From Phaeacidiphilus oryzae TH49 (lineage in GTDB: Bacteria > Actinomycetota > Actinomycetes > Streptomycetales > Streptomycetaceae), in NCBI RefSeq assembly GCF_000744815.1, contig NZ_JQMQ01000005.1:5785801-5849800 (forward strand): DNA of 64,000 nucleotides. The letters are read 5' to 3'. The position numbers and the translations under genes are program-made. Positions within the stretch are counted from its first letter, which is position 1. Every line of letters starts with the position of its first letter. Under the pieces are notes generated by a model. It did no database searches and had not been told where the DNA came from. It was given only the letters and a program-made list of their open reading frames with translations. This document shows positions 7,541 through 52,080 of this stretch, piece by piece.

Positions 7541-8536
7541 TCAGGACGTGCTGCCGCCGGCGATCAGGCGCCGGGCCGGACCGTTGACCGGCTGCGGCAT
7601 CCCCGCGAGGTCCAACTCGAAAAGGGCGACGAGGAGTTGGTCCGCCCGGTTGAGGGCCTCGCGGGAGTAGCCGGCCAGCGTGAACATCGCCGGGGCCAGT
7701 TCGTCCGAGTGGAGGGTGTTCAGCCAGACGCACTCCACCGCCCGCAGGTCGGCCGGTTCGGTCCAGGTGTCGACCTGGGCGACGATCCGGCTGCCGAGGA
7801 GGCAGACCCCGTCCCGGTCCTGGGAGTCCGAGACCTCGAGGTCGCCGAAGCCGAGCCACTCCAGATAGCGGGCGGCGGCGAGGACGGCGTCCTCGGAGGT
7901 GCGCACCGGGTGCGGGAGGAAGGGGCTGCGGGAGCCGGGCGACTGCTCGGCGTGCTCCCGCTCGCGCTCGCGGCCGCGGTCCGGACCGTGCTCGCGGGCC
8001 GGGTCGGCTCCGGGGCGGTCCGAGGAGCCCGGGCGGTCCGAGGAGCCGGGGCGGTCCGAGGCGCCCGCGCGGCGCTGGGCGGGCGTCGGCCCGGCGGGGT
8101 TGCGCAGGTCGCGGGTGGGCAGCGGAGCCGGGGGGAGCGAGCCGGTCTGCGGCGCGCCGGGCGGGCCGGCCGGCTCCGTGGGCGGCTCGAACGGCCGGGC
8201 GGTGTCCACCGGGAGGCGGACCACCGAGCCGCAGCCGCAGGTGAACTCCGGCTGCGGCCACTGCTCGGAGCGTCCGCAGCGCGGGCAGCGCATGTTCAGC
8301 CAGGAGTCCTCCCAGGAGCGGAAGCGGACCAGCACCGGCACCCCGCCACGGAGCAGCGGCACCCGCAACGCGGCGCCGCAGGGGCACGGCAGGGCGGGCG
8401 GTTCGTAGGCGTGCTCACGGCGGCAGCTGGGGCAGCGCACCACTCTGGGCGCCGCGCTGTCCGGCTGCGAGGGCTGCGGGGTCGGCGTACCGGGCATGTT
8501 GACGTACCGTCCGTTCGCTGAGTCTGCTGGGTCCAT
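7541..8536 (-). CDS. Zinc-ribbon protein of unknown function
   Basis: A 331-residue protein. Residues ~30-105 carry two zinc-ribbon-like groups: CPSCRREH...CPCG and CPRCGRSEQW...CGCG. The middle (about 115-210) is disordered, rich in Pro, Arg and Asp, and contains three tandem SDRPGS-like units (DNA about 8015-8070). The C-terminal ~110 residues (SEDAVLAAARYLEWLGFGDLEV...) form a folded domain resembling restriction-endonuclease-like modules, but I cannot identify catalytic residues. The start may be 8536 or the ATG at 8497. It is divergent from the MobA-like gene and upstream of the TPR-like gene. Confidence 0.7.
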   Translation of the reverse strand: MDPADSANGRYVNMPGTPTPQPSQPDSAAPRVVRCPSCRREHAYEPPALPCPCGAALRVPLLRGGVPVLVRFRSWEDSWLNMRCPRCGRSEQWPQPEFTCGCGSVVRLPVDTARPFEPPTEPAGPPGAPQTGSLPPAPLPTRDLRNPAGPTPAQRRAGASDRPGSSDRPGSSDRPGADPAREHGPDRGREREREHAEQSPGSRSPFLPHPVRTSEDAVLAAARYLEWLGFGDLEVSDSQDRDGVCLLGSRIVAQVDTWTEPADLRAVECVWLNTLHSDELAPAMFTLAGYSREALNRADQLLVALFELDLAGMPQPVNGPARRLIAGGSTS

Positions 8537-8648
8537 CGTCCCCGATCCGGCGGCGCTTGGGGACGGCTTGGGAAGGCTTCTCTGCGCCCGTGCGGGCGAC
8601 TGCCCGGCCGCTGCCCGGCCAAAGGTGAGGGGCGGTCGCGGGTGTGGG

Positions 8649-9237
8649 ATGCTCGCGCACGTGAACGGAGTCGCGGGACTGGTACTGGCGGCCGGAGCCG
8701 GGCGGCGGATGGGGGGCCGGCCGAAGGCCCTGTTGCCCTACCGGGGCGGCCTGCTGGTCGAGCATGCGGCGGGGGTACTGGCGGACGGGGGGTGTGCGCC
8801 GGTGGTGGCCGTGCTGGGCGCGGGCGAGGCGGAGCTGCGCCCGGGGGTGGGCGTCGTCCGCAACCCTGACTGGGCGTCAGGAATGGGCTCCTCGCTGCGC
8901 ATCGGGCTGGCGGCGCTGCCCGGCGACGCGGACGCCGTGGTCGTCTCGCTGGTCGATATGCCGGGGGTGACCGCCGAGGCGGTACGGCGGCTGGTGGCGG
9001 CGTACCGCGAGGGGGCGCGGGGCTGGCGGCGGCGGCGTACGGGGGGAGGCGGGGGCACCCGGTCCTGTTCGCGCGCGAGCACTGGGACGGGATCGCGCGG
9101 GTCGCGCGGGGGACGCGGGGGCGCGCGGGTATCTGGCCGAGCGGGCGGCCGAGTTGGCGCTGGTGGAATGCGGCGATATCGCCTCCGGTGAGGACGTCGA
9201 CACTCCCGAGGCGTGGCGCGCGTGGCTCGGCGACTGA
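8649..9237 (+). CDS. MobA-like nucleotidyltransferase, two apparent frameshifts
   Basis: A nucleotidyltransferase of the MobA/MocA (molybdenum cofactor cytidylyl- or guanylyltransferase) type. The N-terminus carries LVLAAGAGRRMGGRPKALLP (nucleotide-binding loop), and VVVSLVDMPGV holds the metal-binding Asp. The frame breaks in the G5 run at 9011-9015 and again in the G5 run at 9108-9112. Restoring one G at each gives an intact ~197-residue protein ending ...EDVDTPEAWRAWLGD and stopping at 9237. Two independent losses in equal runs, with perfect conservation afterwards, point to sequence error. It may mature the Mo cofactor for the two molybdenum hydroxylase operons in this window (inference). 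Confidence 0.75.
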
Positions 9238-13341: not shown

Positions 13342-15813
13342 ATGCGGGACGCCGTTCGCAACACCAGAACCCTGGCGGCGCTGGCCGCCGTTCTCGCGCT
13401 GGTCCTCGGGGCCTTCTGGGCGCAGCAGTCGCCCGCGCGGGCCGTTTCCGCGACCACGAGTGGGACTACCAGTACGGCGGTGAATGTCGACGGCGGCTCC
13501 GCGGCCCGGATCTTCGACGGGATCGGGGCGATCAGCGGTGGCGGCGGCAACTCCCGCCTGCTGATCGACTATCCGGAGCCGCAGCGCAGCCAGATCCTCG
13601 ACTACCTCTTCAAGCCCGGCTACGGCGCCGCGCTGCAGATCCTGAAGGTCGAGATCGGCGGCGACACCAACTCCACGGACGGCTCCGAGTCCAGCTATCA
13701 GCACACCCAGGGCAGCGTGAACTGCGACACCGGCTACGAGTGGTGGCTGATGGAGCAGGCGAAGCTGCGCAACCCGCACATCAAGCTGTACGGCCTGGCC
13801 TGGGGCGCCCCCGGCTGGACCAGTGAGGGCAAGGGCGACGACTTCTTCACCACCACCGGGGTGAACTACCTGATGGGCTGGCTGGGTTGCGCCCGCCACC
13901 ACGGCCTGAACATCGACTACCTCGGCGGCTGGAACGAGCGCGGCTACGACAAGTCCTTCTACGAGCAGCTGCACTCCGCGCTGCCGGCACACGGCTTCAC
14001 CCACACCCAGGTGGTCGGCGCCGACTCCGGCTGGGACGTGGCCACGGCCATGCAGGCCGACCCGGCGTTCAAGAACTCCATCGACATCGTCGGCACCCAC
14101 TACCCGTGCAACTACATGTCCGCGATGACCAGCTGCTCCACCACCCCGGACGCGCTGGCCACCGGCAAGCAGCTGTGGGCGAGCGAGAACGGCTCGGAGG
14201 ACCTGAACACCGGCGGGGCGCCGATGGCCCGGGCGATCAACCGCGGCTACCTGGACGCCAAGATGTCGGCGTACATCAACTGGCCGCTGATCGCCGCGAT
14301 CTACCCCAACCTCCCGTACAACACCATGGGGCTGATGACCGCGACCCAGCCCTGGTCCGGCAACTACACGGTGGGCAAGTCGCTCTGGTCCGCCGCGCAG
14401 ACCACCCAGTTCACCGAGCCGGGCTGGCAGTACCTGGACAGCGGCAGCGGCTACCTCGGCGGCGACCGCGCCAACGGCAGCTACGTCAGCTACCGCTCGC
14501 CGGACAGGCGGAACTGGTCCACGGTGCTGGAGACGCTGGACGCGACGGCCGCGCAGACCGCCACGTTCAAGGTCTCTGGCGGGCTGCCCGGCGGCCGGCT
14601 GCACGTGTGGGCGAGCGACTTCGGCTCCAACAGCCAGAGCGACTACATGGTGCGGCAGCCGGACCTGACGGCCGGCTCGGACGGGACGTACACCCTCACC
14701 CTTCAGCCCGACCACGTCTACACGGTCACGACCGAGACCGGCGGCGGCGCCGGGACGGCCGCCTCGCCCGCACGCGGCACGATGAAGCTCCCGTACGCGG
14801 ACAGCTTCGCCGAGGTGCCGGTGGGCCGGCAGGCCCGGCTGCTCAGCGACCAGCAGGGCGCCTTCGAGTCGGTGAAGTGCGACGGCGGCCGCAGCGGCGA
14901 CTGCCTGCGGCAGATGGACACTCAGCTGCCGGTCACCTGGGACGGCGCCTCGGACCCGTACTCCACGCTGGGCGACCTCGGGTGGACCGACTACACCGTG
15001 TCGGTGGACACCCGGCTGACGCAGACGAGCGGGGCCGTGCAGTTGCTCGGGCGGGTCGGCGAGCAGCAGGGCTTCAGCCCGGCCGGGATCGACGCCTACT
15101 ACCTTCAGCTGGCGCACGACGGCTCGTGGTCGGTGCTGAAGAACACCACCTCGCACACCGTCACCACGCTGGCCTCCGGCACGGATGCCGCGGCGGCGGG
15201 CGACGGCTGGCACCGGCTCTCGCTGGCCTTCGCCGGGGACGCGATCACCGCCTCGATCGACGGGGCGAAGGTGGCCTCGGTCACCGACTCCTCGTACGAG
15301 TCGGGGCAGGTCGGGATCGGGACCTCCGGCTACGTCCAGGGCGAGTTCAGCCGGCTGAGCATCACGCCCGGGGCCGGACAGCCGGCCTGGTCCGGCACCT
15401 ACAAGCTGGTGAACCGGAACAGCGGCAAGGTGCTCGACGTGGCGAACCAGAACACCGCCGACGGCTCACCGGTCGACCAGTGGACGGACAACTCAGGGGC
15501 GAACCAGCAGTGGCAGGTCACCGCGGTCGGCGACGGCTACTACCGGCTGGTCGGCGTGCAGAGCGGCAAGCCGCTTGAGGTCCCGTCCGCCAATCCGAAC
15601 GAGGGCACCCAGCTGGACGTCTCCACCGGTTCGGGGCCGGCCGCCGAGTGGCGGATCGTGCCCTCGGGGTCCGGCTACGCCACCCTCGAGAACCGGGCCA
15701 CTGGGATGATGGTGGACGTCAACGGCCAGTCCACCTCGGACGGCGCCAAGGTGATCGAGTGGCCGCAGAACGGCGGCGCCAACCAGCAGTGGCAGCTGGT
15801 GAGCACGGGCTGA
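13342..15813 (+). CDS. Secreted GH59 galactocerebrosidase-like glycosidase with C-terminal ricin-type lectin domain
   Basis: An 823-residue secreted enzyme. Residues 1-36 are a signal peptide ending in SPARA. The GH59 hallmark FDGIGAISGGGGNSRLL follows at about residue 57. The likely acid/base Glu199 is in GGWNERG and the likely nucleophile Glu282 in ASENGS, matching the two catalytic glutamates of galactocerebrosidases. Residues ~490-685 look like a concanavalin-type laminin-G/GH59 C-terminal domain, and ~690-823 form a ricin-type beta-trefoil with QQWQ repeats. The expected activity is release of beta-galactose from galactolipids or galactans. It stands alone, behind its own promoter. Confidence 0.88.
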   Translation: MRDAVRNTRTLAALAAVLALVLGAFWAQQSPARAVSATTSGTTSTAVNVDGGSAARIFDGIGAISGGGGNSRLLIDYPEPQRSQILDYLFKPGYGAALQILKVEIGGDTNSTDGSESSYQHTQGSVNCDTGYEWWLMEQAKLRNPHIKLYGLAWGAPGWTSEGKGDDFFTTTGVNYLMGWLGCARHHGLNIDYLGGWNERGYDKSFYEQLHSALPAHGFTHTQVVGADSGWDVATAMQADPAFKNSIDIVGTHYPCNYMSAMTSCSTTPDALATGKQLWASENGSEDLNTGGAPMARAINRGYLDAKMSAYINWPLIAAIYPNLPYNTMGLMTATQPWSGNYTVGKSLWSAAQTTQFTEPGWQYLDSGSGYLGGDRANGSYVSYRSPDRRNWSTVLETLDATAAQTATFKVSGGLPGGRLHVWASDFGSNSQSDYMVRQPDLTAGSDGTYTLTLQPDHVYTVTTETGGGAGTAASPARGTMKLPYADSFAEVPVGRQARLLSDQQGAFESVKCDGGRSGDCLRQMDTQLPVTWDGASDPYSTLGDLGWTDYTVSVDTRLTQTSGAVQLLGRVGEQQGFSPAGIDAYYLQLAHDGSWSVLKNTTSHTVTTLASGTDAAAAGDGWHRLSLAFAGDAITASIDGAKVASVTDSSYESGQVGIGTSGYVQGEFSRLSITPGAGQPAWSGTYKLVNRNSGKVLDVANQNTADGSPVDQWTDNSGANQQWQVTAVGDGYYRLVGVQSGKPLEVPSANPNEGTQLDVSTGSGPAAEWRIVPSGSGYATLENRATGMMVDVNGQSTSDGAKVIEWPQNGGANQQWQLVSTG

Positions 15814-17998: not shown

Positions 17999-18469
17999 AT
18001 GTCTTTCGAGACTCCGAAGGGCACCCGGGGCGGCCGGGGTTCGACCGGGCCGGGGGTCCGGGCGCTGAAGGGTTCGATGGTCCGCTGGCACCGGCGGACC
18101 GGATACAAGCTGATGGGGATGGATCTGGTGATCCTGACCACCATCGGCGCCAAGTCCGGTCGGCGCAGGGAGAATCCGGTCGCCTGGACGGCGGACGGGG
18201 AGGACGCCTGGCTGGTGGTCGCCTCCGCGGCCGGCTCCCGCCACAACCCCGCCTGGTTCCACAACATCGCCGCCCATCCGGACCAGGTGTGGGCCGAGTT
18301 CAAGCACCGCAGGCTGCGCGTCATACCGGAGCAGCTGCACGGCGAGCGGCGGGCGGAGGCCTGGGCGCGGCTGGTGGAGAGGTTCCCGAGGTACGCCGAG
18401 TACCAGCGGAAGACCGACCGCGAGGTGCCGGTCATCCGGCTGACCCCGGCACCGGAGAACCATACCTAA
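17999..18469 (+). CDS. F420-dependent nitroreductase-family (DDN-like) oxidoreductase
   Basis: A 156-residue deazaflavin-dependent oxidoreductase of the DDN type. The family features LTTIGAKSGRRRENPV, AWLVVASAAGSRHNPAWFHN and the following DQVW stretch are all present. These enzymes use F420H2 to reduce quinones or nitro compounds. ATG 17999 was chosen because GGGGGAGGGGGAG lies just upstream; an in-frame start at 17966 has none. Its TAA stop overlaps the first palindrome of the MarR system, so expression of the two may interfere. Confidence 0.85.
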   Translation: MSFETPKGTRGGRGSTGPGVRALKGSMVRWHRRTGYKLMGMDLVILTTIGAKSGRRRENPVAWTADGEDAWLVVASAAGSRHNPAWFHNIAAHPDQVWAEFKHRRLRVIPEQLHGERRAEAWARLVERFPRYAEYQRKTDREVPVIRLTPAPENHT

Positions 18470-18478
18470 GGAACCTTA
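18467..18478. promoter_or_regulatory. MarR operator candidate, copy 1
   Basis: Perfect 12-bp palindrome TAAGGAACCTTA, about 50 bp upstream of the MarR gene. It is embedded in a longer repeat, CCTAAG (18465-18470) with CTTAGG (18479-18484). A near-identical copy is at 19042-19053. Confidence 0.65.
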
Positions 18479-18527: not shown

Positions 18528-18956
18528 ATGACTCGTACCAACGGACGCCGGGTCCGGGACGGCGACGCCTGGCGGGCCGGTGCGCTGCTGCGTCCCGTGC
18601 ACCAGCGGATGCACCGGACGATCGACCTCGCGCTCGCCCCGCTGGGCACGTCCATGTCCCAGTACGTGGTGCTGCTCGCGGTGGAGGAGGCCAAGGGCGC
18701 CTCGGCGCACGAACTCGCCGTGCGGACGTACCAGACCGACCAGTCGATCGGTGCGCTGCTGCGCAGGCTGGTCGAGTCCGGCCTGGTGGAGCGGGACGCC
18801 GGGCCCGGCCGCATCCACCGCCACCGGCTCAGCGAGGCGGGGCGGCGGCTGGTCGAGCGCTGCGAGGAGCCGGTCCGCACCGCCCTGGAGTCCGAGTTCG
18901 CCGCGCTCGAGGCGGCGGAGGTGCGCCAACTGCGGGCGCTGCTGGAGAAGTTGTAG
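18528..18956 (+). CDS. MarR family regulator
   Basis: A 142-residue MarR-type repressor with the winged helix over residues ~60-105 (AHELAVRTYQTDQSIGALLRRL, then the DAGPGRIHRHRL wing). It lies between two near-identical TAAGGNACCTTA palindromes, one before its own start and one at the start of the molybdenum hydroxylase operon. It is therefore very likely autoregulated and the local controller of that operon. The ligand is unknown, presumably the hydroxylase substrate. Confidence 0.85.
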   Translation: MTRTNGRRVRDGDAWRAGALLRPVHQRMHRTIDLALAPLGTSMSQYVVLLAVEEAKGASAHELAVRTYQTDQSIGALLRRLVESGLVERDAGPGRIHRHRLSEAGRRLVERCEEPVRTALESEFAALEAAEVRQLRALLEKL

Positions 18957-19011: not shown

Positions 19012-19040
19012 TTGACAGCGGGGCGGGCTGGGGGTTTCTT
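19012..19040 (+). promoter_or_regulatory. Promoter of the molybdenum hydroxylase operon
   Basis: TTGACA (19012-19017), 17 bases, TTTCTT (19035-19040). The MarR palindrome starts two bases later, over the expected transcription start, the classical place for repression. Confidence 0.5.
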
Positions 19041-19041
19041 C

Positions 19042-19053
19042 TAAGGCACCTTA
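19042..19053. promoter_or_regulatory. MarR operator candidate, copy 2
   Basis: TAAGGCACCTTA, differing from copy 1 at a single central base, 38 bp upstream of the FAD-subunit start. Confidence 0.65.
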
Positions 19054-19090: not shown

Positions 19091-19930
19091 GTGAAACCGG
19101 GCCCCTTCGACTACGCCGCGCCGGCCTCGCTCGACGAGATGCTGGCGCTGCTCTCCGATCCCGAGCGGGAGGCGAAGGTGCTGGCCGGCGGCCAGTCCCT
19201 GATCCCGATGCTGAACATGCGGCTGGCCCGACCGGACCTGCTGGTGGACATCACCGGGCTGCCCGGCCTCGACGTCCTCGCCGTCGACCCGGCCACCGGC
19301 GCGCTGCGGATCGGCGCCGCCGTACGGCAGTCCGCCGTCGCCGCCGACCCGGCGGTGGGCGCCGGCTGGCCGCTGCTCGCCGCGGCCGCCGGGCACATCG
19401 GCCACCCGCAGATCCGCAACCGCGGCACCGTCTGCGGCAGCCTGGTCCACCACGACCCGGCCGCCGAGCTGCCGGCCGCCGCGGTCGCGCTGGACGCCGA
19501 GCTGGTGGTGGCCGGACCGCGCGGGACGCGGACCGTGCCCGCCGCCGACTTCTTCCTCGGCACCTTCGCCACCGCCGTCGAGCCGGACGAACTGCTCATC
19601 GAGGCGGTGCTGCCGGCCGTCCCCGCCGGCGCCGGCTGGGGCTTCGCCGAACTCGCCCGGCGGCACGGGGACTTCGCCGCGGTGGGGGTCGCCGTGCTGG
19701 TCGCCGAGGGGCATGCCCGGGTGGTCTGCTTCGGGGCCGGCTTCACCCCCGTACGGCTGCCGGCGGCCGAGGCCGCCGCGCTGGCCGGCGACCCTGCCGC
19801 GGCGCGCCAGGCGCTCCGGGCCGGGCTGGAGCCGCCGGGCGACGTCCACGCCTCGGGCGAATGGCGGCGCGAGGCCGCCGAGGAACTCCTCGTACAGGCC
19901 CTCGAAGACGCCTGGGAGCGGCGCTCATGA
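19091..19930 (+). CDS. Molybdenum hydroxylase FAD-binding subunit (CoxM-like)
   Basis: A 279-residue flavoprotein subunit of the xanthine dehydrogenase/CO dehydrogenase family, which passes electrons from the iron-sulfur subunit. FAD-binding motifs are visible: AGGQSLIPMLNMR near residue 36 and the GHIGHPQIRNRGTVCGSLVHHDPAAELP segment near 100-125. GTG 19091 was chosen because the family typically starts with (M)KPxPFDY; GTGs at 19076 and 19079 are alternatives. First gene of a four-gene operon, overlapping the next by four bases. Confidence 0.9.
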   Translation: MKPGPFDYAAPASLDEMLALLSDPEREAKVLAGGQSLIPMLNMRLARPDLLVDITGLPGLDVLAVDPATGALRIGAAVRQSAVAADPAVGAGWPLLAAAAGHIGHPQIRNRGTVCGSLVHHDPAAELPAAAVALDAELVVAGPRGTRTVPAADFFLGTFATAVEPDELLIEAVLPAVPAGAGWGFAELARRHGDFAAVGVAVLVAEGHARVVCFGAGFTPVRLPAAEAAALAGDPAAARQALRAGLEPPGDVHASGEWRREAAEELLVQALEDAWERRS

Positions 19931-20520
19931 CGACACCTCGGAACACCGCGGCCGCAGCCGCCACCGGCGGGCGCAACCGGATCCGCCCGCAGAGTCCGCC
20001 GCTCGCCGAGCCCAGCGCCTGGCGCGAGCTGGCCCTCACCGTCAACGGCGAGAGCGTCGCCGTACGGGCGGAGTCCCGGCTGCTCCTCAGCGACCTGCTG
20101 CGGGACAGGCTGGGGCTCACCGGCACCCACACCGGCTGCGAGCACGGCGTCTGCGGCGCCTGCACAGTGCTCCTCGACGGCGAGCCGGTGCGGTCCTGCC
20201 TCACCCTGGCCGCGCAGTGCCAGGACGCCGAGGTCCGCACCGTGGAGGGCCTCGCGCCGGACGGCAAGGAGCTCGGCCCTGTGCAGCGCGCCTTCCACGA
20301 ACAGCACGGCCTGCAGTGCGGCTACTGCACCCCCGGGCTGCTGATGACCTGCACCGCCCTGGCCGAACGGGCCGAGCGGCCGGACGAGGCGGCGGTCGCC
20401 GACGCCCTCAGCGGCCACCTCTGCCGCTGCACCGGCTACCGGGGGATCCGGGCCGCGGCCCGGCAGGCGCTCGACGAGGTGCACGGCGCACCCGCCGGCC
20501 ACGAGGAGGCAGAGCGATGA
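19927..20520 (+). CDS. Molybdenum hydroxylase 2Fe-2S subunit (CoxS-like)
   Basis: A 197-residue small subunit carrying both [2Fe-2S] clusters. The plant-ferredoxin type motif CEHGVCGACTVLL...C lies in the first half, and the second cluster motif CGYCTPG...CRC in the second. The first ~35 residues are a Thr/Ala/Pro-rich extension absent from typical 160-residue members. ATGA overlaps with both neighbours indicate a tightly coupled operon. Confidence 0.92.
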   Translation: MTTPRNTAAAAATGGRNRIRPQSPPLAEPSAWRELALTVNGESVAVRAESRLLLSDLLRDRLGLTGTHTGCEHGVCGACTVLLDGEPVRSCLTLAAQCQDAEVRTVEGLAPDGKELGPVQRAFHEQHGLQCGYCTPGLLMTCTALAERAERPDEAAVADALSGHLCRCTGYRGIRAAARQALDEVHGAPAGHEEAER

Positions 20521-22841
20521 GCGGAGAGGTCCGCACCCACATCGGGCGGGCAATGCCCCGGATCGAGGACGATCGGCTGCTGCGCGGCCAGGGCCGCTAT
20601 GTGGACGACATCGCCCTGCCCGGCACCCTCCACGCCGCCTTCCTGCGCAGCACCCAGGCGCACGCCCGCATCCTGCGGATCGACACCGAGCGGGCGGCCG
20701 CGCTGCCCGGCGTCCACGCGGTGCTGACCGCGGCCGACGTCGCCGCGCTGCCGCCGGTGGTCAACGAGGCCGAGCTGCGGGTGCCACCGGCGCTCGCCGA
20801 GGCGCTCCGTCCGGTGGTGCGCCGGCTGCCGCTGCCGGCGCTGGCCGACGGCCGGGTCGGCTACGTCGGCCAGGCGGTGGCCATGGTCGTCGCGGACAGC
20901 CGCTATCTGGCGGAGGACGCCCTGGAGGAGATCGAGGTCGACTACCAGCCGCTGCCGGTCGTCGTCGACCCCGAGGAGGCGCTGGCCGAGGGGGCTCCCC
21001 GGCTCGCCGGCGAGGGCACCGAGGAGGAGTGGCCGGACAACCTGGCGCTGGCCGTCCACACCGTGGTCGGCGACCCGGAGGCGGCCTTCGCCGAGCCGGG
21101 CGCGGTGATCGTGGAGGAGGAGTTCGAGGCCCACCGCTATGTGGCCTCGCCGATGGAGACCCGGGCGCTGCTGGCCGCCCCCGGCGGCTACGACGGGCGG
21201 CTGACAGTGTGGTCCAACACCCAGACGCCGCACCGGCTGCGGGACCACATCGCCGAGTCGCTGGGGCGGCCGGCGGGCGAGGTGCGGGTGGTCGCGGCGG
21301 ACGTCGGCGGCGGCTTCGGGCAGAAGGGGATCATCTACCCGGAGGAGGTCCTCGTCCCGTTCGCGGCGCAGGCGCTCGGGCGGCCGGTGCTGTGGCGGGA
21401 GGACCGCAACGAGAACCTGGTGGCGGCCTCGCACGCGCGCGAGCAGCGGCACCGGATCGCGCTGGCGGCGGACGGGGAGGGGCGGCTGCTGGGGCTGCGC
21501 GACCGGTTCACGGTCAACTTCGGCGCGGGGACGCTGACCGGCCTCGTGGTCCCCTACAACAGCGTGGTGCACCTCCTCGGGCCGTACCGGGTGCCGAACG
21601 TGGAGATCGACGTCCGGGCGGCGCTCACCAACACCGCGCCGACCTCCCCGTACCGGGGCGCCGGGCGGCCGGAGGCGGTCTTCGCGATGGAGCGGGCGCT
21701 GGACCGGCTGGCCCGGAGGCTGGGGATGGAGCCGGCCGAGCTGCGCCGCCGCAATCTGCTGACGCCCGATCAGCTTCCTTACCGGACAGGGCTGCTGGAC
21801 CGGTCGGGCAGCGATCAGGAGTACGACTCCGGGGACTTTCCGGAGCTGCTGCGCAGGGCGGTGGCGGCGGTCGACCTGCCGGCGCTGCGGAAGCGGCAGG
21901 CGGAGGAGGCGGCGGCGGGCGCGCGGCGACGGGTAGGCGTCGGGTTCGCCGTCTACCTGGAGTCGACCGGGCTCGGCCCGTTCGAGTCGGCGCGGCTGTC
22001 GGTGCGGCCGGACGGGCGGTTGCTGCTGGCGCTGGGCGCCCCCTCGCAGGGGCAGGGCCACCGGACCAGCATGGCGCAGATCGCGGCGGACGCGGTCGGC
22101 GTGCCGGTCGAGCTGATCGACGTGGTGGGCGGGGACACCGACACCGTCCCGCACGGGGTCGGCACGATCGCTTCGCGGGCGCTGGTGACGGCCGGGAACG
22201 CGACGCATCTGGCGGGGCGGCGGCTGCGCGAGCGGATCGCGGCGGAGGTCCGGGCCGAGGCTCAGGATGCCTGGGGGCAGCGGGAGTTGGCGCGGCTGGT
22301 GGCCGACGGGGTCGAGCTGGGCGAGACCGCGTACTTCCGGCCGCCGGGGTTCACCATGTCCTCGGGCGCGCATGCGGCGGTGGTGGAGGTGGACACCCGG
22401 ACGGGGGCGGTGTCCGTCGAGCGGTATGTGGTGGTGCACGACGCCGGGCGGATCGTCAATCCGCTGATCGCGGAGGGGCAGATCACCGGCGGAGTCGCGC
22501 AGGGCATCGCGGGAGCGCTGTTCGAGGAGATGGTCTACGGGCCGGACGGGCAACCGGTGACCACCACGTACATGGACTACCTGGTGCCGACCTCCTCCGA
22601 GATCCCGGATCTGGAGCTGGACGAGATCCACACCTTCAGCACCCTCAACCCGCTGGGAGTGAAGGGGCTCGGCGAGGGCGGGGCGATCGCCCCGCAGGCG
22701 GTGCTGGCCAACGCGGTGGAGGACGCCCTGCGGGGAGTGGGCGGCGCGGACGAGGTGGTCGTGCGGCGGGGGCCGCTGACGCCCGAACGGGTTCGGGGGC
22801 TGATTCGCAGGACCGAGAACACCGGCAAGGAGACACACTGA
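20517..22841 (+). CDS. Molybdenum hydroxylase large (molybdopterin) subunit, form II CoxL-like
   Basis: A 774-residue catalytic subunit binding molybdopterin cytosine dinucleotide. Family motifs are IGRAMPRIEDDRLLRGQGRY at the N-terminus, VGGGFGQKG, and GLGEGGAIAP near the end, which holds the expected active-site Glu. The active-site loop reads SPYRGAGRPE, close to the form II signature AYRGAGR and lacking the Cys of the form I motif AYRCSFR. It is therefore probably not a true CO dehydrogenase but a hydroxylase of an unknown, perhaps aromatic or N-heterocyclic, substrate. No maturation genes (coxD/E/F) are adjacent. Confidence 0.9.
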   Translation: MSGEVRTHIGRAMPRIEDDRLLRGQGRYVDDIALPGTLHAAFLRSTQAHARILRIDTERAAALPGVHAVLTAADVAALPPVVNEAELRVPPALAEALRPVVRRLPLPALADGRVGYVGQAVAMVVADSRYLAEDALEEIEVDYQPLPVVVDPEEALAEGAPRLAGEGTEEEWPDNLALAVHTVVGDPEAAFAEPGAVIVEEEFEAHRYVASPMETRALLAAPGGYDGRLTVWSNTQTPHRLRDHIAESLGRPAGEVRVVAADVGGGFGQKGIIYPEEVLVPFAAQALGRPVLWREDRNENLVAASHAREQRHRIALAADGEGRLLGLRDRFTVNFGAGTLTGLVVPYNSVVHLLGPYRVPNVEIDVRAALTNTAPTSPYRGAGRPEAVFAMERALDRLARRLGMEPAELRRRNLLTPDQLPYRTGLLDRSGSDQEYDSGDFPELLRRAVAAVDLPALRKRQAEEAAAGARRRVGVGFAVYLESTGLGPFESARLSVRPDGRLLLALGAPSQGQGHRTSMAQIAADAVGVPVELIDVVGGDTDTVPHGVGTIASRALVTAGNATHLAGRRLRERIAAEVRAEAQDAWGQRELARLVADGVELGETAYFRPPGFTMSSGAHAAVVEVDTRTGAVSVERYVVVHDAGRIVNPLIAEGQITGGVAQGIAGALFEEMVYGPDGQPVTTTYMDYLVPTSSEIPDLELDEIHTFSTLNPLGVKGLGEGGAIAPQAVLANAVEDALRGVGGADEVVVRRGPLTPERVRGLIRRTENTGKETH

Positions 22842-23470
22842 TGGAGCTCGACCATTCATTCACCGTGCCCGTCGCGCGGGCGGAGGCCTGGAAGGTCTTC
22901 CAGGACCTGGAGGGAATCGCCCCGTGCATGCCGGGGGCGGTGCTCGACGGGGTCGACGGGGACGCGTTCCGGGGCCGGGTCCGGGTCAAGGCCGGTGCGG
23001 TGCAGATGAGTTACCGGGGGGAGGGGACCATCGCCTATGACGAGGGCCGCTGGGAGGTCGTGCTGGACCTGCGCGGGAGCGAGGCGCGGGGGGCGGGGAC
23101 GGCGGCGGCGCGGGTCGTGGCGACGCTGACGGAGGAGGGCGCCGGGGCGGCGGCGACGCGGGTACGGGTGCGGACCTCGCTGGAGCTGACGGGTCGGCCG
23201 GCGCAGTTCGGGAGGGGGATCCTCAGCGAGATCGGGGATCGGCTGGTGGGGCAGTTCGCGGGGAATCTGGAGCGACGGCTGGCGCCTGCGACGTCGGCTG
23301 CGGCGTCGTCGGCGGTGTCGGCTGCGGTGTCGGCTGCGGAGCCGGAGCGGTTGGATCTGGGGGCGGCGGTGTGGCCGGTGCTGCTGCGGCGGATTGCGGT
23401 GCCGGTGGGGTCCGCGGTGGTGGCGGCGGGCGTCACCTGGGCGGTGTGCCGGGTGCGTTGTCGGCGGTGA
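22841..23470 (+). CDS. CoxG-like SRPBCC protein with C-terminal membrane anchor
   Basis: A 209-residue member of the carbon monoxide dehydrogenase subunit G (SRPBCC) family. The START-like fold covers residues 1-~145 (MELDHSFTVPVARAEAWKVF, then IAPCMPGAVL). An Ala/Ser-rich linker and a hydrophobic segment (VPVGSAVVAAGVTWAVC) follow, ending in basic residues. In Oligotropha, CoxG recruits the dehydrogenase to the membrane; a similar anchoring role is likely here. The start overlaps the large-subunit stop by one base. Confidence 0.88.
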   Translation: MELDHSFTVPVARAEAWKVFQDLEGIAPCMPGAVLDGVDGDAFRGRVRVKAGAVQMSYRGEGTIAYDEGRWEVVLDLRGSEARGAGTAAARVVATLTEEGAGAAATRVRVRTSLELTGRPAQFGRGILSEIGDRLVGQFAGNLERRLAPATSAAASSAVSAAVSAAEPERLDLGAAVWPVLLRRIAVPVGSAVVAAGVTWAVCRVRCRR

Positions 23471-45091: not shown

Positions 45092-46285
45092 TCAGGCTAT
45101 CCGCTGCTCGCCGCCCGGCAGCGGGGTGTGGTCGTGGTGGATCGGGGTCCGCACCGCGCTGAGCGGCAGATGGCCGCCGCCCCGGCGGTGGGCGACGATC
45201 TCGGCGGCGACCGCGACCGCGGTCTCCTCCGGGGTGCGGGCGCCCAGGTCCAGGCCGATCGGCGAGCGGAGGAGGGCCAGCTCGTCCTCGGTCAGCCCGG
45301 CCTCGCGGAGCAGCGCCAGACGGTCACCGTGGGTGCGGCGGGAGCCCATCGCACCCACGTAGCCGAGCGGCAGCCGCAGCGCGCGCTCCAGCAGCGGCAC
45401 GTCGAACTTGTGGTCGTGGGTGAGGACGCAGACCACCGTGCGGCCGTCGATCCGGCCCGCCTCGACCTCGCCGTCCAGATAGCGGTGCGGCCAGTCCACG
45501 ACGACCTCGTCCGCCTCCGGGAAACGCCGCTCGGTGGCGAACACCGGGCGGGCGTCGCAGACCGTCACCCGGTAGCCGAGGAAGGTGCCGATCCTGGCCA
45601 CCGCCGCGGCGAAGTCGATCGCCCCGAAGACCAGCATCCGCGGCCGCGGGGTGTAGGACTCGACGAAGAGGGTGATCGCCTCCTCGCCCTCGGGCGAGCA
45701 GGGGCGGCCGTCCCCGGCCAGCGCCACCACCCCGGTGCGGCCGACCTCCAGCATGGCCCGGGCCTCGGTCGCCGCGGCGGCCCGCAGGCCCGGGTGGACC
45801 CCGGCCGGCTCCCCGTCCCAGGAGAGGGTGCCGGACTCGGCGTCTGCGGTCACCGCGACCGTCCCGCCGAGGAGGGCCGGGGGACCGTCGATCACCCTGG
45901 CCAGCGCCACCGGGGTGCCGGCGGCCAGGCCGGCCACCGCCGCCCGGACCCCGGGGGTGTCCCCGGCGGCTCCGGGAAGGACCGGCTGGACGAAGATGTC
46001 GATGATCCCGCCGCAGGTCAGGCCGACCGCGAAGGCGTCCTCGTCGGAGTAGCCGAAGCGCTGGAGCACCGGCCGGCCGTCCTCCAGGGCCTGTTGGCAC
46101 AGCTCGTAGACGGCGCCCTCGACGCAGCCGCCGGAGACGCTGCCGACGACCTCGCCGTCCGCGTTCACCGCGAGCGCCGCACCGGGGTCGCGGGGGGCGC
46201 TCCCGGAGACCGCGACCACGCTGGCGATCGCGAAGGCCCGGCCGGCCGCGTGCCACGCGTTCAACTGCTCGGCGATCTCCCGCAT
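45092..46285 (-). CDS. XdhC family molybdenum cofactor insertion protein
   Basis: A 397-residue XdhC/CoxI-type chaperone that sulfurates or inserts the molybdopterin cofactor into xanthine dehydrogenase. The N-terminal XdhC domain has SVSGGCVEGAVYEL and GLTCGGIIDIFVQP, the conserved Cys residues. The C-terminal Rossmann domain has RMLVFGAIDFAAAVARIG and GYVGAMGSRRTH. Start is the ATG preceded by GGGAAGG; upstream in-frame codons are a Gly/Pro repeat and unlikely to be translated. Last gene of the xanthine dehydrogenase operon, about 200 bp after the permease. Confidence 0.93.
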   Translation of the reverse strand: MREIAEQLNAWHAAGRAFAIASVVAVSGSAPRDPGAALAVNADGEVVGSVSGGCVEGAVYELCQQALEDGRPVLQRFGYSDEDAFAVGLTCGGIIDIFVQPVLPGAAGDTPGVRAAVAGLAAGTPVALARVIDGPPALLGGTVAVTADAESGTLSWDGEPAGVHPGLRAAAATEARAMLEVGRTGVVALAGDGRPCSPEGEEAITLFVESYTPRPRMLVFGAIDFAAAVARIGTFLGYRVTVCDARPVFATERRFPEADEVVVDWPHRYLDGEVEAGRIDGRTVVCVLTHDHKFDVPLLERALRLPLGYVGAMGSRRTHGDRLALLREAGLTEDELALLRSPIGLDLGARTPEETAVAVAAEIVAHRRGGGHLPLSAVRTPIHHDHTPLPGGEQRIA

Positions 46286-48163: not shown

Positions 48164-50524
48164 TCAGGTGCCGGTCAGATGCTCCGGCCGGACCGGCACC
48201 CGGTCCAGCGGAAGCCCGGTGGCGGCGCGGATCGCCGCCACCACGGCCGGGGTCGAGGACAGCGTCGGCGCCTCTCCCGCCCCGCGCAGTCCGTACGGCG
48301 CATGCGGATCCGCCAGCTCCAGCACGTCCACCGGCTGCGGCGGCGTGTCCAGGATGGTCGGGATCAGATAGTCGGTGAAGGACGGGTTCCGCACCTTCCC
48401 GGCCTCGACCAGGACCTCCTCCATCAGCGCGAGCCCCAGGCCCTGGGTGGAGCCGCCCTGGATCTGGCCGACCACCGACTGCGGGTGGATCGCCCTGCCG
48501 ACGTCCTGCGCCGCCGCCAGCTCCACCACCCGCACCAGGCCCAGTTCGACGTCCACGTCGACCACCGCGCGATGGGCGCAGAAGGAGTACTGGACGTGGC
48601 CGAAGCCCTGGCCGGTCTCGGGGTCGAACGGCTCGGTCGGCCGGTGCCGGAACACCCGGGTCTCCTCGACCACCTCGTCGCCGAGGAGGTCCGCGACCCC
48701 GGCCAGCACCCCGGCGCCGGCCGCCACCACCTTGCCGCCGGCCAGCGCCAGGTCCCCGTCCGGCTGGGCCCATCCGTACCGGGCCCGGCCCCGGGCCAGC
48801 ACGGCGGCGCGCACCGCCGCGCAGGCGGCCCGCACCGCGCCACCGGTCATATAGGTCTGCCGGGAGGCGGAGGTGGACCCGGCCGAGCCGACCGCCGTGT
48901 CGGCCGGCCGGATCGCCACCCGCTCGACGCCCAGCTCGGTACGGGCGATCTGCCCGTGGACGGTCACCCCGCCCTGGCCGACCTCGGCCATCGCGGTGTG
49001 GACGGTGGCCACCGGCTCGCCGCCGATGACCTCAAGGCGCACCCGGGCCGTCGAGTAGTCGTCGAAGCCCTCGGAGAAGCCGACGTTCTTGATGCCGACC
49101 GCGTAGCCCACCCCGCGGACGACGCCCTCCCCGTGCGAGGTGTTGGAGAGCGCCCCCGGCAGCGCGCGGACGTCCGGCGCGGAGGTGTCCAGCGCGGGCG
49201 GCAGCGGCAGCGCCTTCACCCGGCGGAGGATCTCGGCGACCGGCGCGGCCGAGTCCACGACCTGCCCGGTGGGCATCACCGAGCCCTCGTGCATCGCGTT
49301 GCGCCGCCTGAACTCCACCGGGTCCAGGCCGAGTTCGGCGGCCAGCCGGTCCATCTGCGCCTCGTAGGCGAAGCAGGCCTGGACGGCTCCGAAGCCGCGC
49401 ATCGCCCCGCAGGGCGGGTTGTTGGAGTAGAGGGCGACCGCCTCCATCCGGGTGTTCGGGATCTCGTACGGGCCCATGCCGAGCGAGGCCGCGTTGCCGA
49501 CCACGGCCGGCGAGGAGGACGCGTACGCGCCGCCGTCCAGCACGATCCGGGCGTCGCAGTAGAGCAGCCTGCCGTCGGCGGTGGCGCCGTGCTCGTAGCG
49601 GAGCACGGCCGGGTGGCGGTGGACGTGCCCGAAGAAGGACTCCTCCCGGGAGTACACGATCTTGACCGGCCGGCCGGTGCGGAGGGCCAGCAGGGAGGCG
49701 TGGATCTGCATCGACAGGTCCTCCCGGCCGCCGAAGGCGCCGCCGACGCCGGCCAGGGTCAGCCGCACCTTCTCGGCCGGCAGGCCCAGCACGGGGGCGA
49801 TCTGCCGCTGGTCGGCGTGCAGCCACTGGGTGGCGACGAACAGGTCCACCCCGCCGTCCTCGGCGGGCACCGCAAGCCCCGACTCGGGGCCGAGGAAGGC
49901 CTGGTCCTGCATGCCGACCCGGTACTCGCCGCGGACCACGGCGTGCGCGCGGGCCCGCAGCTCGTCGGTCACGCCCTGGCCGGAGACGATCCGCTGACGG
50001 TGCACCACGTTTCCGGAGGCGTGCGCCCGGTACTCGTCCGGGGCGTGGACATGGCCGTGGGTCTCGGGGTCGAGGCACTGCTCCTCGGTCCAGATCGGCT
50101 CCAGCGGCTCGTAGTCCACCACGATCCGGTCCAGTGCCCGCCGGGCGGTCTCCGGGTGGTCGGCGGCGACGATCGCCACCGCCTCGCCGTGGTAGCGGAT
50201 CTGGTCGATGGCCAGCGCCGGCTGGTCGGCGATCTCCAGGCCGTAGAACTTGTCGCCGGGGACGTCCTCGTGGGTGAGCACCGCGTACACCCCGGGCAGG
50301 GCGAGGGCGCCGGTGATGTCCACCGAGCGGATCCGGGCCCTGGCGTGCGGGGCGCGCAGCGCCATCCCCCACAGCATGTCCTCGGCCCACAGGTCGGAGC
50401 CGTATGCGAACTCGCCGCGGACCTTGAGGTTCCCGTCCGGGCGGATCGGGGAGCCGCCGACGCCGCCGGGGTGGCTGGAGTCGATCCGCTCCAGGTTCTT
50501 CTCGCTCCGCATGGTTCCGGCCAT
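48164..50524 (-). CDS. Xanthine dehydrogenase molybdopterin-binding subunit
   Basis: A 786-residue Mo subunit. It shows KVRGEFAYGSDL, GVGGAFGGREDLSMQ (Mo-cofactor site), the active-site loop NNPPCGAMRGFGAVQ, MAEVGQGG, and GLRGAGEAPTLSSTPAV near the end with the catalytic Glu. The GAMRGFG loop and the split three-subunit layout match bacterial xanthine dehydrogenases such as PucD or XdhD. The ATG overlaps the 2Fe-2S stop (TGATG). Together with its partners it oxidises hypoxanthine and xanthine to urate, feeding uox at 27 kb. Confidence 0.9.
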   Translation of the reverse strand: MAGTMRSEKNLERIDSSHPGGVGGSPIRPDGNLKVRGEFAYGSDLWAEDMLWGMALRAPHARARIRSVDITGALALPGVYAVLTHEDVPGDKFYGLEIADQPALAIDQIRYHGEAVAIVAADHPETARRALDRIVVDYEPLEPIWTEEQCLDPETHGHVHAPDEYRAHASGNVVHRQRIVSGQGVTDELRARAHAVVRGEYRVGMQDQAFLGPESGLAVPAEDGGVDLFVATQWLHADQRQIAPVLGLPAEKVRLTLAGVGGAFGGREDLSMQIHASLLALRTGRPVKIVYSREESFFGHVHRHPAVLRYEHGATADGRLLYCDARIVLDGGAYASSSPAVVGNAASLGMGPYEIPNTRMEAVALYSNNPPCGAMRGFGAVQACFAYEAQMDRLAAELGLDPVEFRRRNAMHEGSVMPTGQVVDSAAPVAEILRRVKALPLPPALDTSAPDVRALPGALSNTSHGEGVVRGVGYAVGIKNVGFSEGFDDYSTARVRLEVIGGEPVATVHTAMAEVGQGGVTVHGQIARTELGVERVAIRPADTAVGSAGSTSASRQTYMTGGAVRAACAAVRAAVLARGRARYGWAQPDGDLALAGGKVVAAGAGVLAGVADLLGDEVVEETRVFRHRPTEPFDPETGQGFGHVQYSFCAHRAVVDVDVELGLVRVVELAAAQDVGRAIHPQSVVGQIQGGSTQGLGLALMEEVLVEAGKVRNPSFTDYLIPTILDTPPQPVDVLELADPHAPYGLRGAGEAPTLSSTPAVVAAIRAATGLPLDRVPVRPEHLTGT

Positions 50525-51066
50525 CAGTCGACCACCGCCTCCTGCCTGCGCGTCGCGGCGAGGCGGACCGCCTCCATGATCTTCTCGTAGCCCGTGCAGC
50601 GGCACAGGTTCCCGGACAGCGCCTCCCGGATGTCCAGGTCGGACGGGGCCGGATCGCGCTCCAGCAGATCGTGGGCCTGCACCATGAGCCCGGGCGTGCA
50701 GAAGCCGCACTGCACGGCGCCGGCGTCCAGGAAGGCCCGCTGGACGACGGCCAGCGCCTCCGGCCGCCCGGCGCCGGCGGCCTGGCCGGGTGCCTCGCCG
50801 GTGGCCTGCCCCGCCGGCGCGTCCGCCTCCGCCAGGCCCTCCACCGTGCGCACCTCGCGCCCCTCCACCTGGCCGGCCGCGACCAGGCAGGAGCAGACCG
50901 TCCGGCCGTCCAGATACACCGTGCAGGAACCGCATTCGCCCTGCTCGCAGGCGTTCTTGGAGCCGGGGAGGCCGAGCCGCTCGCGGAGGACGTAGAGGAG
51001 GCTCTCGCCCTCCCACACGTCGTCCGCCTCGACCGTGCGGCCGTTGGCCGTGAAGGTGACCCTCAT
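50524..51066 (-). CDS. Xanthine dehydrogenase 2Fe-2S subunit
   Basis: A 180-residue small subunit with both clusters: CEQGECGSCTVYLDGRTVCSC near residues 40-60 and CGFCTPG...CRCTGY near 120-160. Between them is a ~20-residue Ala/Gly-rich insertion (residues ~83-103) not usual in the family. Four-base overlap with the FAD subunit and one-base overlap with the Mo subunit. Confidence 0.93.
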   Translation of the reverse strand: MRVTFTANGRTVEADDVWEGESLLYVLRERLGLPGSKNACEQGECGSCTVYLDGRTVCSCLVAAGQVEGREVRTVEGLAEADAPAGQATGEAPGQAAGAGRPEALAVVQRAFLDAGAVQCGFCTPGLMVQAHDLLERDPAPSDLDIREALSGNLCRCTGYEKIMEAVRLAATRRQEAVVD

Positions 51067-51971
51067 GCCGCCCTCCTCAGGTTGGTGGCGTACTCGTCCC
51101 AGGTCCAGGCGAGGGTGCGGCGGGCCATCACCGCCAGGGCGTGCCGGCGGTAGGCGGCGCTGCCCCGGACGTCGTCGATCGGGCGGGCGGCCGCCGCCAC
51201 CAGCTCACCGAAGCGGCGGACCAGCCCGTCGTCCAGCCGCGCGCCGGTCCGCCACAGCCCGCGCGCGGCGAGCTCGCCGGTGAGGAACTCCTCCGCCTCG
51301 GCCGGGCGGATCGGGGTCGGTCCGGCCGAGCCGATCCCGGCGCCGACCGCGCCCCCGCCGGTCGCCGGGTCCGGGTGGAGCGCCACCGCGAACGCGCAGA
51401 CCGCGATCACCATCGCGTTCCTGGTCCCGACCTTGGAGAACTGCTGGGGCCCCGCCGCGACCGGGATCCGGACGGCCCGGATCAGCTCGTCCTCGGCGAG
51501 GGCGTTCCGTTTCACCCCGGTGTAGAAGTCGTCGATCGGGATCAGCCGGGTCCCGCGGGCGGCGGACTCCGCCTCCACCCGGGTGCCGGGCCCGGCGGCC
51601 AGCAGCGCCGGATGGGAGTCCCCGGCGGGGGAGGCCGCGCCCAGGTTGCCGCCGACGCAGCCGCGGTTGCGGATCTGCGGCGAGCCGACGGTGTGGGCCG
51701 CGAGGGCGAGCGCGGGCGCCGCCGCCCGCAGCTCCCGCACGATCCGCGCGTACGGCACGGAGGCGCCGAGGCGGAGGACGCGGCCGCCCTCCGCGGTCTC
51801 CCAGTCCTCCAGCTCCCGGACGCGGTTGAGGTCGAGCAGCGCCTCCGGGCGGCGTCTGTCGAAGTTGAGCTCGACCATCAGGTCGGTGCCCCCGGCGATC
51901 GGGACGGCGGCCGGCCGCTCGGCCTTCGCCGCCAGTGCCTCCCCCCAGGTGGCCGGCCGCAGGAACTCCAT
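51063..51971 (-). CDS. Xanthine dehydrogenase FAD-binding subunit
   Basis: A 302-residue flavoprotein subunit with the FAD motifs PIAGGTDLMVELNF (about 26-39) and AHTVGSPQIRNRGCVGGNLGAASPAGDSHP (about 94-123). ATG 51971 is preceded by GAGGAG. First gene of the operon; a promoter-like TTGACC-N18-TACAAG lies about 110 bp upstream. Sequence divergence from the CoxM-like subunit at 19 kb shows the two hydroxylase systems are separate. Confidence 0.93.
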   Translation of the reverse strand: MEFLRPATWGEALAAKAERPAAVPIAGGTDLMVELNFDRRRPEALLDLNRVRELEDWETAEGGRVLRLGASVPYARIVRELRAAAPALALAAHTVGSPQIRNRGCVGGNLGAASPAGDSHPALLAAGPGTRVEAESAARGTRLIPIDDFYTGVKRNALAEDELIRAVRIPVAAGPQQFSKVGTRNAMVIAVCAFAVALHPDPATGGGAVGAGIGSAGPTPIRPAEAEEFLTGELAARGLWRTGARLDDGLVRRFGELVAAAARPIDDVRGSAAYRRHALAVMARRTLAWTWDEYATNLRRAA

Positions 51972-52080
51972 CCGGTGACTCCTCGTCGGTCTCGGGCAGT
52001 TAGTGAGGTAGTACACAATCCCCGACCGGTGGGGCCCAGTCACCGAACCCCCGAACCCGTGTCGCCTCCCTGGCGCGAGA

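Follow-up and report, generated by a model that had tools for sequence, protein, structure and literature searches.

A CoxG-linked molybdenum hydroxylase operon of Phaeacidiphilus oryzae that probably serves an undescribed ring-cleavage pathway

CoxG, the quinone-binding protein of molybdenum (Mo)-containing carbon monoxide (CO) dehydrogenase as described in PMC13240472 (citing Kropp et al. 2025), belongs to the systems closest to the locus considered here; the same paper defines the form I active-site loop by its Cys and calls the activity of form II CoxL-like enzymes unresolved. In Sulfolobus, a CoxG-like protein brings a soluble dehydrogenase to the membrane, and the authors (PMC11962113) favour anchoring over electron transfer and cite an anchor role of a CoxG homologue that had been proposed for 3-hydroxypyridine dehydrogenase. 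Here we analyse an operon, M-S-L-G (positions 19091-23470), in a stretch of 64,000 nucleotides from Phaeacidiphilus oryzae TH49 (contig NZ_JQMQ01000005.1, positions 5,785,801 to 5,849,800; hereafter the window) with about 74% G+C, taken from a genome of 7.8 Mb in 6 contigs (G000). M-S-L-G probably encodes a CoxG-tethered Mo hydroxylase of the xanthine oxidase family that supplies, or acts within, one undescribed, conserved oxidative pathway, and its likeliest role is that of an accessory hydroxylase of one undescribed ring-cleavage pathway.

The regulator gene marR and the genes M, S, L and G all lie on the plus strand (Table 1) and form a tight operon, in which ATGA overlaps join M to S and S to L and a single base at 22841 is shared by L and G, confirming the complete coupling by overlaps reported in the initial annotation. 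M-S-L combines a FAD subunit, two [2Fe-2S] domains, MoCoBD_1/2 and the GGxFG and KGxGE motifs, as is typical of xanthine-oxidase-family Mo hydroxylases. M-S-L-G is a real, complete, separately regulated operon, and its enzyme belongs to a Mo hydroxylase clade that has no name. Scanning the genome collection yielded 27 named loci, 25 from Streptomyces, among them S. cacaoi NBRC 12748 with L022 and Streptomyces sp. NBC_01446 with L033, and two from Amycolatopsis, with a best L segment 63-74% identical to that of the window (counts of 27 leave out L048, L050 and L051, which duplicate L023, L040 and L035, as well as L049 of genome G214). Genes of these relatives were called by homology, codon composition alone being unreliable at 74% G+C. 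All four genes are present in 26 of the 27 loci, L047 having a truncated L and G only, and in L038 L is broken in frame. In the family of P. oryzae L is rare (5 of 297 genomes at E 1e-170), and searches of phages (13 records) and plasmids (297 records) returned exclusively records below 60% identity. In Amycolatopsis orientalis, a second M-S-L-G with another loop, AFRGYGM, follows directly 3' of the first (L027:11954-16268).

The active-site loop of L reads PYRGAGR and not (A/S)YRCS(F/L)R as in form I, with Gly381 at the position of the CO dehydrogenase Cys, just as initially annotated. It is invariant in 18 of 18 aligned sequences, one from the window and 17 from among the 27 related loci (L025 and L027 included), and a broader loop listing shows it in 27 of 30 rows, those of L025 and L027 displaying an earlier PYRG and that of L038 its broken frame. 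The Glu of KGLGEGG is presumably the residue that is catalytic in xanthine oxidase family enzymes. In xanthine dehydrogenase (XDH) the Glu that follows GGGFGGK binds the substrate; L has Gly at this position. Compared with AYRGAGR of form II, six of seven residues match, but "form II active-site loop" is not supported as an informative label, since APYRGAGR also occurs in relatives 48-49% identical to L (L114, L115), so that the loop is not special to the M-S-L-G enzyme, and since AYRGAGR is reported from other molybdenum hydroxylases in PMC13240472. L has no curated NCBIfam name because it falls below the cut-off in all 13 families listed, the best match being CODH_aero_grp5 (673 bits, cut-off 950), followed by a glyceraldehyde dehydrogenase alpha model (586 bits, cut-off 790). 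The form I CO dehydrogenase model TIGR02416 gave 494.8 bits, half of its cut-off of 991.15, and the xanthine dehydrogenase models were likewise not reached (PucD 326 vs 783.65, XdhA 388 vs 780, xanthine_xdhB 249 vs 849.5). In a tree of 38 L proteins, the 16 orthologues used form one clade (support 100/100) apart from form I CoxL (8uem, 1n5w), Qor/NdhC, Kdh and PucD/XDH; the specific hydroxylase suggested at the outset thus stands outside those characterised clades that could be placed. Within this clade, the L of the window groups with those of L021, L022, L023, L024 and L043 (93/96, just below the mark for firm support). The genome harbours a second CoxL-like gene with the loop DAYRGAGR and with M, S and G homologues (L071, G000:C5:4636000-4650000), which the tree places beside form I CoxL.

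G carries a COXG SRPBCC domain and a C-terminal membrane anchor and matches CoxG of Mycobacterium smegmatis (8uds) both by profile (E 5.8e-42) and by fold (TM 0.91 on the target, 42% identity). In its structure model a linker of low confidence connects the SRPBCC domain to a C-terminal helix (residues 174-208), which is hydrophobic and ends in a basic tail. A hydrophobic C-terminal stretch is found in 29 of 30 CoxG rows (L048 duplicating L023), the sole miss, L038, being a truncated frame. The anchored CoxG of the initial annotation was hence borne out, and by analogy with M. smegmatis the electron entry at the membrane that had been proposed with it is plausible. CoxG could act as an anchor only or as a quinone shuttle, and we infer electron delivery through CoxG by the same analogy. 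The finding suggests that CoxG, familiar from CO dehydrogenase, serves further Mo hydroxylases. The kinship of L to CoxL in the CODH_aero_grp5 score and that of G to the mycobacterial CoxG would also suit a form II CO dehydrogenase or another oxidiser of small gases, yet L has no CO dehydrogenase Cys, reaches half of the TIGR02416 cut-off, lies outside the supported CoxL branch and has a ring-cleavage pathway as its constant company, which makes this reading highly improbable; on motif, model score and tree we rejected CO dehydrogenase. Neither a CoxD nor a CoxE homologue came to notice next to the operon, although no search aimed at them was made.

Clustering of conserved frames around M-S-L-G, followed by Pfam and NCBIfam comparisons, pointed to the gene set of this pathway. 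It consists of an aldehyde dehydrogenase (ALDH), a VOC protein, an aspartate dehydrogenase-like protein (AspDH), an alpha/beta hydrolase, a cupin, two short-chain dehydrogenases/reductases (SDR), a thiamine diphosphate (ThDP) enzyme, a reductase and a Rieske oxygenase, together with a major facilitator superfamily (MFS) transporter and a MarR regulator. In many Streptomyces an MFS transporter of the aromatic-acid type, the ALDH, the two-domain VOC protein (catechol 2,3-dioxygenase group), the AspDH-like protein, the hydrolase, the cupin and an SDR stand beside M-S-L-G, and VOC, ALDH, AspDH and hydrolase lie within 10 kb of it in 10 of the 27 loci, whose flanks were examined up to 10 kb, several being shorter. 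The genome of the window has a VOC gene, 75% identical, at 4.843 Mb within L070 (G000:C5:4833500-4853400), where the MFS gene is followed by ALDH-VOC-AspDH-hydrolase-cupin-SDR-SDR-ThDP-reductase-Rieske and a MarR homologue adjoins. This ALDH-to-Rieske order, with the reductase identified in this genome only, is repeated in 20 other genomes of the family examined, three of them with M-S-L-G and one, G079, with remnants, namely an apparently broken M-S-L-G beside the pathway with L in two frames and M without its first two thirds. Exceptions are L095, in which the second SDR was not found, and L097 and L102, in which MFS is not beside ALDH. In both Amycolatopsis the genes of the set are arranged differently, one contig stopping short of ALDH, and in eight further genomes the pathway surrounds the VOC gene, L134 being cut by the contig end. 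AspDH was sought in all these genomes with the L080 protein. The transporter, the VOC protein and the ALDH match NCBIfam models for an aromatic acid/H+ symport-like transporter, C23O/HpaD-like and HpaE-like enzymes, all below the cut-off; for the SDRs and the ThDP enzyme, the only models passed have generic names. The Rieske oxygenase is CarAa/VanA-like with carbazole dioxygenase as its nearest solved relative, while that of the VOC protein is 3b59. As a catabolic cluster without a name, the set is common to actinobacteria and proteobacterial plasmids (L070, L080, L081, L083-L102, L129-L138).

A search of the named genomes with the L033 VOC protein, at a limit of E 1e-40, recovered VOC from 27 of 27 named genomes with L, the two Amycolatopsis included, at E 1e-143 or better and with 69-100% identity (100% being L033 itself, the source of the query). 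The background at E 1e-90 amounts to 25 of 297 genomes of the family and 3 of 336 genomes of the phylum. All five genomes with L in the family sample are among the 25 with VOC (hypergeometric p 2.9e-6 uncorrected; 3.4e-5 without the genome of the window). L and VOC are non-adjacent in G214 (megabases), G219 (41 kb), G296 (44 kb) and G000 (0.95 Mb), so that their co-occurrence is more than physical hitch-hiking.

The regulators point in the same direction as far as their kinship is concerned. The pattern TAAGGNNCCTTA is found at two places in the 7.8-Mb genome, upstream of marR and of M, and nowhere else, and it occurs twice in the window vs 0 times in 100 shuffles of the window; the MarR therefore looks dedicated to M-S-L-G, as had been noted. 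Perfect sites lie 5' of marR in L022 and L045 and 5' of M in L022 and L043, and L021 has an imperfect one before M. MarR orthologues (66-68% identity) adjoin M-S-L-G in these four of the 27 loci, whereas in 21 of the 27 a TetR-MarR fusion is the regulator beside M-S-L-G instead, L045 having both kinds. An N-terminal TetR part (TetR_N, TetR_C_16) and a C-terminal MarR part were confirmed in all six fusion proteins tested. The MarR half of the fusion shares 43% identity with the MarR that belongs to the pathway; for the MarR of the window the value is 32%, so that the inducers of these two may differ. The fusion, e.g. L033:5978-7231 on the minus strand, stands beside xdhC or M and is one continuous, unusual-looking protein. 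A promoter scan found no full-consensus sigma-70 promoter.

A number of observations weigh against tying the operon to the pathway. The p values are uncorrected for phylogeny, and of the five genomes with L in the sample, three appear to be strains already represented among the named loci. Furthermore, 20 of the 25 VOC genomes are without L at E 1e-170, i.e. the pathway is mostly found without M-S-L-G, and it has its own Rieske oxygenase, which together indicate that the enzyme is accessory. When the limit is relaxed to E 1e-160 with the L of L033 as query, an L-like protein turns up in 38 of the 336 genomes of the phylum, 41-53% identical except in the genome of the window, which is also the only one of the 38 with VOC; the association is therefore limited to the close clade and does not extend to CoxL-like proteins in general. 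A distance of about 0.95 Mb separates operon and pathway in the genome of the window, and the pathway genes there have no TAAGGNNCCTTA site. The reversed TAAGGNNCCTTA, taken as a control pattern, is itself present at one place in the genome, so that only the positions of the sites are remarkable and not their number. The predicted structure of L is poor (pLDDT 67) and thus gives no pocket argument. Finally, the pathway is itself undescribed: among the open-licence titles and abstract openings listed, no description of its gene set or of kynurenate-degradation genes was found. Co-occurrence, linkage and related regulators connect one clade that lacks the CO dehydrogenase Cys with a single definable catabolic pathway, through whose chemistry the substrate of M-S-L-G can be sought. 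The search for the "unknown substrate" of the initial annotation can now be confined to compounds that suit this pathway, which makes for unusually good leads.

In the mechanism that we favour, MarR bound to TAAGGNNCCTTA would repress its own gene and the operon until an inducer comes. An XdhC protein, whose gene lies 22 kb away, would sulfurate the cofactor and insert it. We infer the direction of the reaction and the substrate class: with water as the oxygen source, L would hydroxylate a carbon of an aromatic or N-heteroaromatic compound, electrons would pass from the two [2Fe-2S] clusters of S to the FAD of M, then to a quinone on CoxG and into the respiratory chain, and the hydroxylated product would be handed to the Rieske oxygenase and the ring-cleavage enzymes. 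Alternatively, the enzyme might oxidise an aromatic or other aldehyde in parallel to the pathway ALDH or in its place, for which the second rank of the glyceraldehyde dehydrogenase alpha model and the probable aldehyde step implied by the ALDH could be adduced; but the ALDH is present in 20 of the 20 family genomes examined and in that of the window, with M-S-L-G as the accessory, and we consider such a role unlikely.

The combination of a Mo hydroxylase, a Rieske oxygenase, an SDR and an extradiol enzyme follows the logic of quinoline-type degradation, and quinaldate 4-oxidoreductase is a Mo enzyme. The chemistry of the bacterial kynurenate pathway has been known since the early 1960s and comprises dihydroxylation, dihydrodiol oxidation, extradiol cleavage, side-chain reduction, decarboxylation of a 2-oxo acid, aldehyde oxidation and release of the ring nitrogen. 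The gene set fits this route step by step, although other bicyclic or monocyclic substrates may fit as well. In our boldest guess, the Rieske oxygenase with its reductase would perform the 7,8-dihydroxylation, an SDR would act as dihydrodiol dehydrogenase and the VOC protein would cleave the ring, leaving an SDR, the ThDP enzyme (decarboxylation of a 2-oxo acid), ALDH, hydrolase, cupin and AspDH for the remaining steps. That M-S-L-G is the entry enzyme of such a kynurenate pathway, e.g. by C4 hydroxylation of quinaldate to kynurenate with electrons entering respiration via CoxG, is a long shot. According to PMC11354673, pseudomonads can turn kynurenic acid into glutamate, alanine and organic acids, quinaldic acid being its dehydroxylated form, and a title on the formation of 7,8-dihydroxykynurenic acid stands in the reference list of PMC5610271. 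No quinaldate 4-oxidoreductase gene was among the literature matches listed.

The absence of maturation genes noted initially holds within the operon but not for the system, as the XdhC gene lies in the same window. According to PMC2997495, sulfuration and insertion of the cofactor are carried out by XdhC proteins in enzymes of this family. The protein of the window is the genome's only homologue of the XdhC of the relatives, is 55% identical to the one beside M in L033, stays below both NCBIfam XdhC cut-offs and probably serves the neighbouring xanthine dehydrogenase as well. In 18 of the 27 loci an xdhC-like gene is found close to M, in 18 of 18 on the opposite strand. The putative nucleoside triphosphate (NTP) transferase of Table 1 has its best NCBIfam match, under the cut-off, in nicotine blue oxidoreductase.

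Next to the operon and convergent with G are genes for 8-oxoguanine deaminase, xanthine permease, uricase, OHCU decarboxylase and HIU hydrolase, the last named from place and sequence. As L is a xanthine-oxidase-family protein, it might hydroxylate purines or oxidised purines for this urate/allantoin region. However, none of the five purine neighbours appears in the flanks (up to 10 kb) of the 27 loci, a PucD at 48164-50428 of the window passes its curated cut-off (816.4 vs 783.65) where L scores 326, L has Gly at the position of the XDH Glu, and a further XDH-type L (L072; AFRGFGGPQ, GGGFGGKE) is encoded elsewhere in the genome. Given the separate XDH genes and neighbours shared by 0 of 27 loci, the adjoining purine genes mislead; we find a purine role quite improbable and rejected purine catabolism as our principal interpretation. 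The minus-strand segment 45092-52043, about 20 kb from uricase, contains PucD with PucE/PucC-like genes (named from sequence), a Xan_ur_permease-family gene and XdhC. The window further encodes glyoxylate/glycerate genes and malate synthase, as well as a glycosyl hydrolase of family 59 (galactocerebrosidase-like) with a ricin-type lectin domain at 13342-15813 on the plus strand, near the operon and in no apparent relation to it.

Table 1. Features of the M-S-L-G region and candidate maturation genes; positions refer to the window.
Feature	Position	Strand	Remarks
MobA/MocA-like NTP transferase, candidate Mo-cofactor cytidylyltransferase	8496..9191	+	below MocA and NboR cut-offs
Putative MarR operator 1, TAAGGAACCTTA, 5' of marR	18467..18478	+	fits TAAGGNNCCTTA; 49 bp before marR
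MarR-family regulator	18528..18956	+	Pfam MarR_2 41.6 bits, cut-off 27
Putative -35 box TTGACA upstream of M	19012..19017	+	also 5' of M in L021, L022, L023, L024, L043
Putative MarR operator 2, TAAGGCACCTTA, 5' of M	19042..19053	+	fits TAAGGNNCCTTA; 37 bp before GTG 19091
M, FAD subunit	19091..19930	+	start GTG 19091, 19076 possible; FAD_binding_5, CO_deh_flav_C (Pfam)
S, subunit with two [2Fe-2S] domains	19927..20520	+	Fer2, Fer2_2 (Pfam); two cysteine clusters
L, molybdenum subunit, 774 aa	20517..22841	+	MoCoBD_1, MoCoBD_2, Ald_Xan_dh_C (Pfam)
GGGFGQKG motif of L	21306..21329	+	Gly where the genome's own XDH-type L (L072, GGGFGGKE) has Glu
PYRGAGR active-site loop of L, residues 378-384	21648..21668	+	Gly381 at CO dehydrogenase Cys position
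KGLGEGG motif of L	22662..22682	+	invariant in 18 aligned sequences
G, CoxG (SRPBCC fold)	22841..23470	+	Pfam COXG 43.4 bits, cut-off 22.2
C-terminal anchor of G, residues 174-208	about 23360-23464	+	helix of structure model
XdhC-family Mo-cofactor sulfuration/insertion factor	45092..46285	-	XdhC_CoxI 100 bits, XdhC_C 143 bits

Among known systems, the proteobacterial Rieske-SDR-hydrolase-VOC-SDR-ThDP-AspDH-ALDH cluster on plasmids of Nitratireductor (L080) and Paracoccus (L081) has homologues of most genes of the co-occurring pathway (VOC 42-46% and ALDH 57-62% identical, L080 probes vs actinobacterial loci), but it differs in gene order, NMT1-type ABC transport, an FAD oxidoreductase and a flavodoxin, and its annotated genes, as far as seen, do not include a Mo hydroxylase. 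3-Hydroxypyridine dehydrogenase is alike in the CoxG homologue proposed as its anchor (cited in PMC11962113). PucCDE xanthine dehydrogenase of the same window (48164-52043) is also a three-subunit Mo hydroxylase and may share the XdhC protein with M-S-L-G, whereas its L sequence is distant and has Glu (GGAFGGRE) where the L of the operon has Gly. QorL of quinoline 2-oxidoreductase (1t3q) and a protein annotated as NdhC on an Arthrobacter plasmid (L121) are Mo hydroxylases that share GGGFGQK, and Qor acts on an N-heteroaromatic compound; their loops, AYRGVGF and AFRGVGY, differ from PYRGAGR, however, and they occupy another supported branch of the tree. The Mo-CO dehydrogenase of M. smegmatis (8uem, 8uds), finally, has the loop AYACSFR (8uem) in place of PYRGAGR, and falls into a separate clade, the window's clade being set apart further by its ring-cleavage company, but it is presumably an M-S-L-type enzyme like that of the window, and its CoxG has the same fold and a lipid-anchoring C-terminus.

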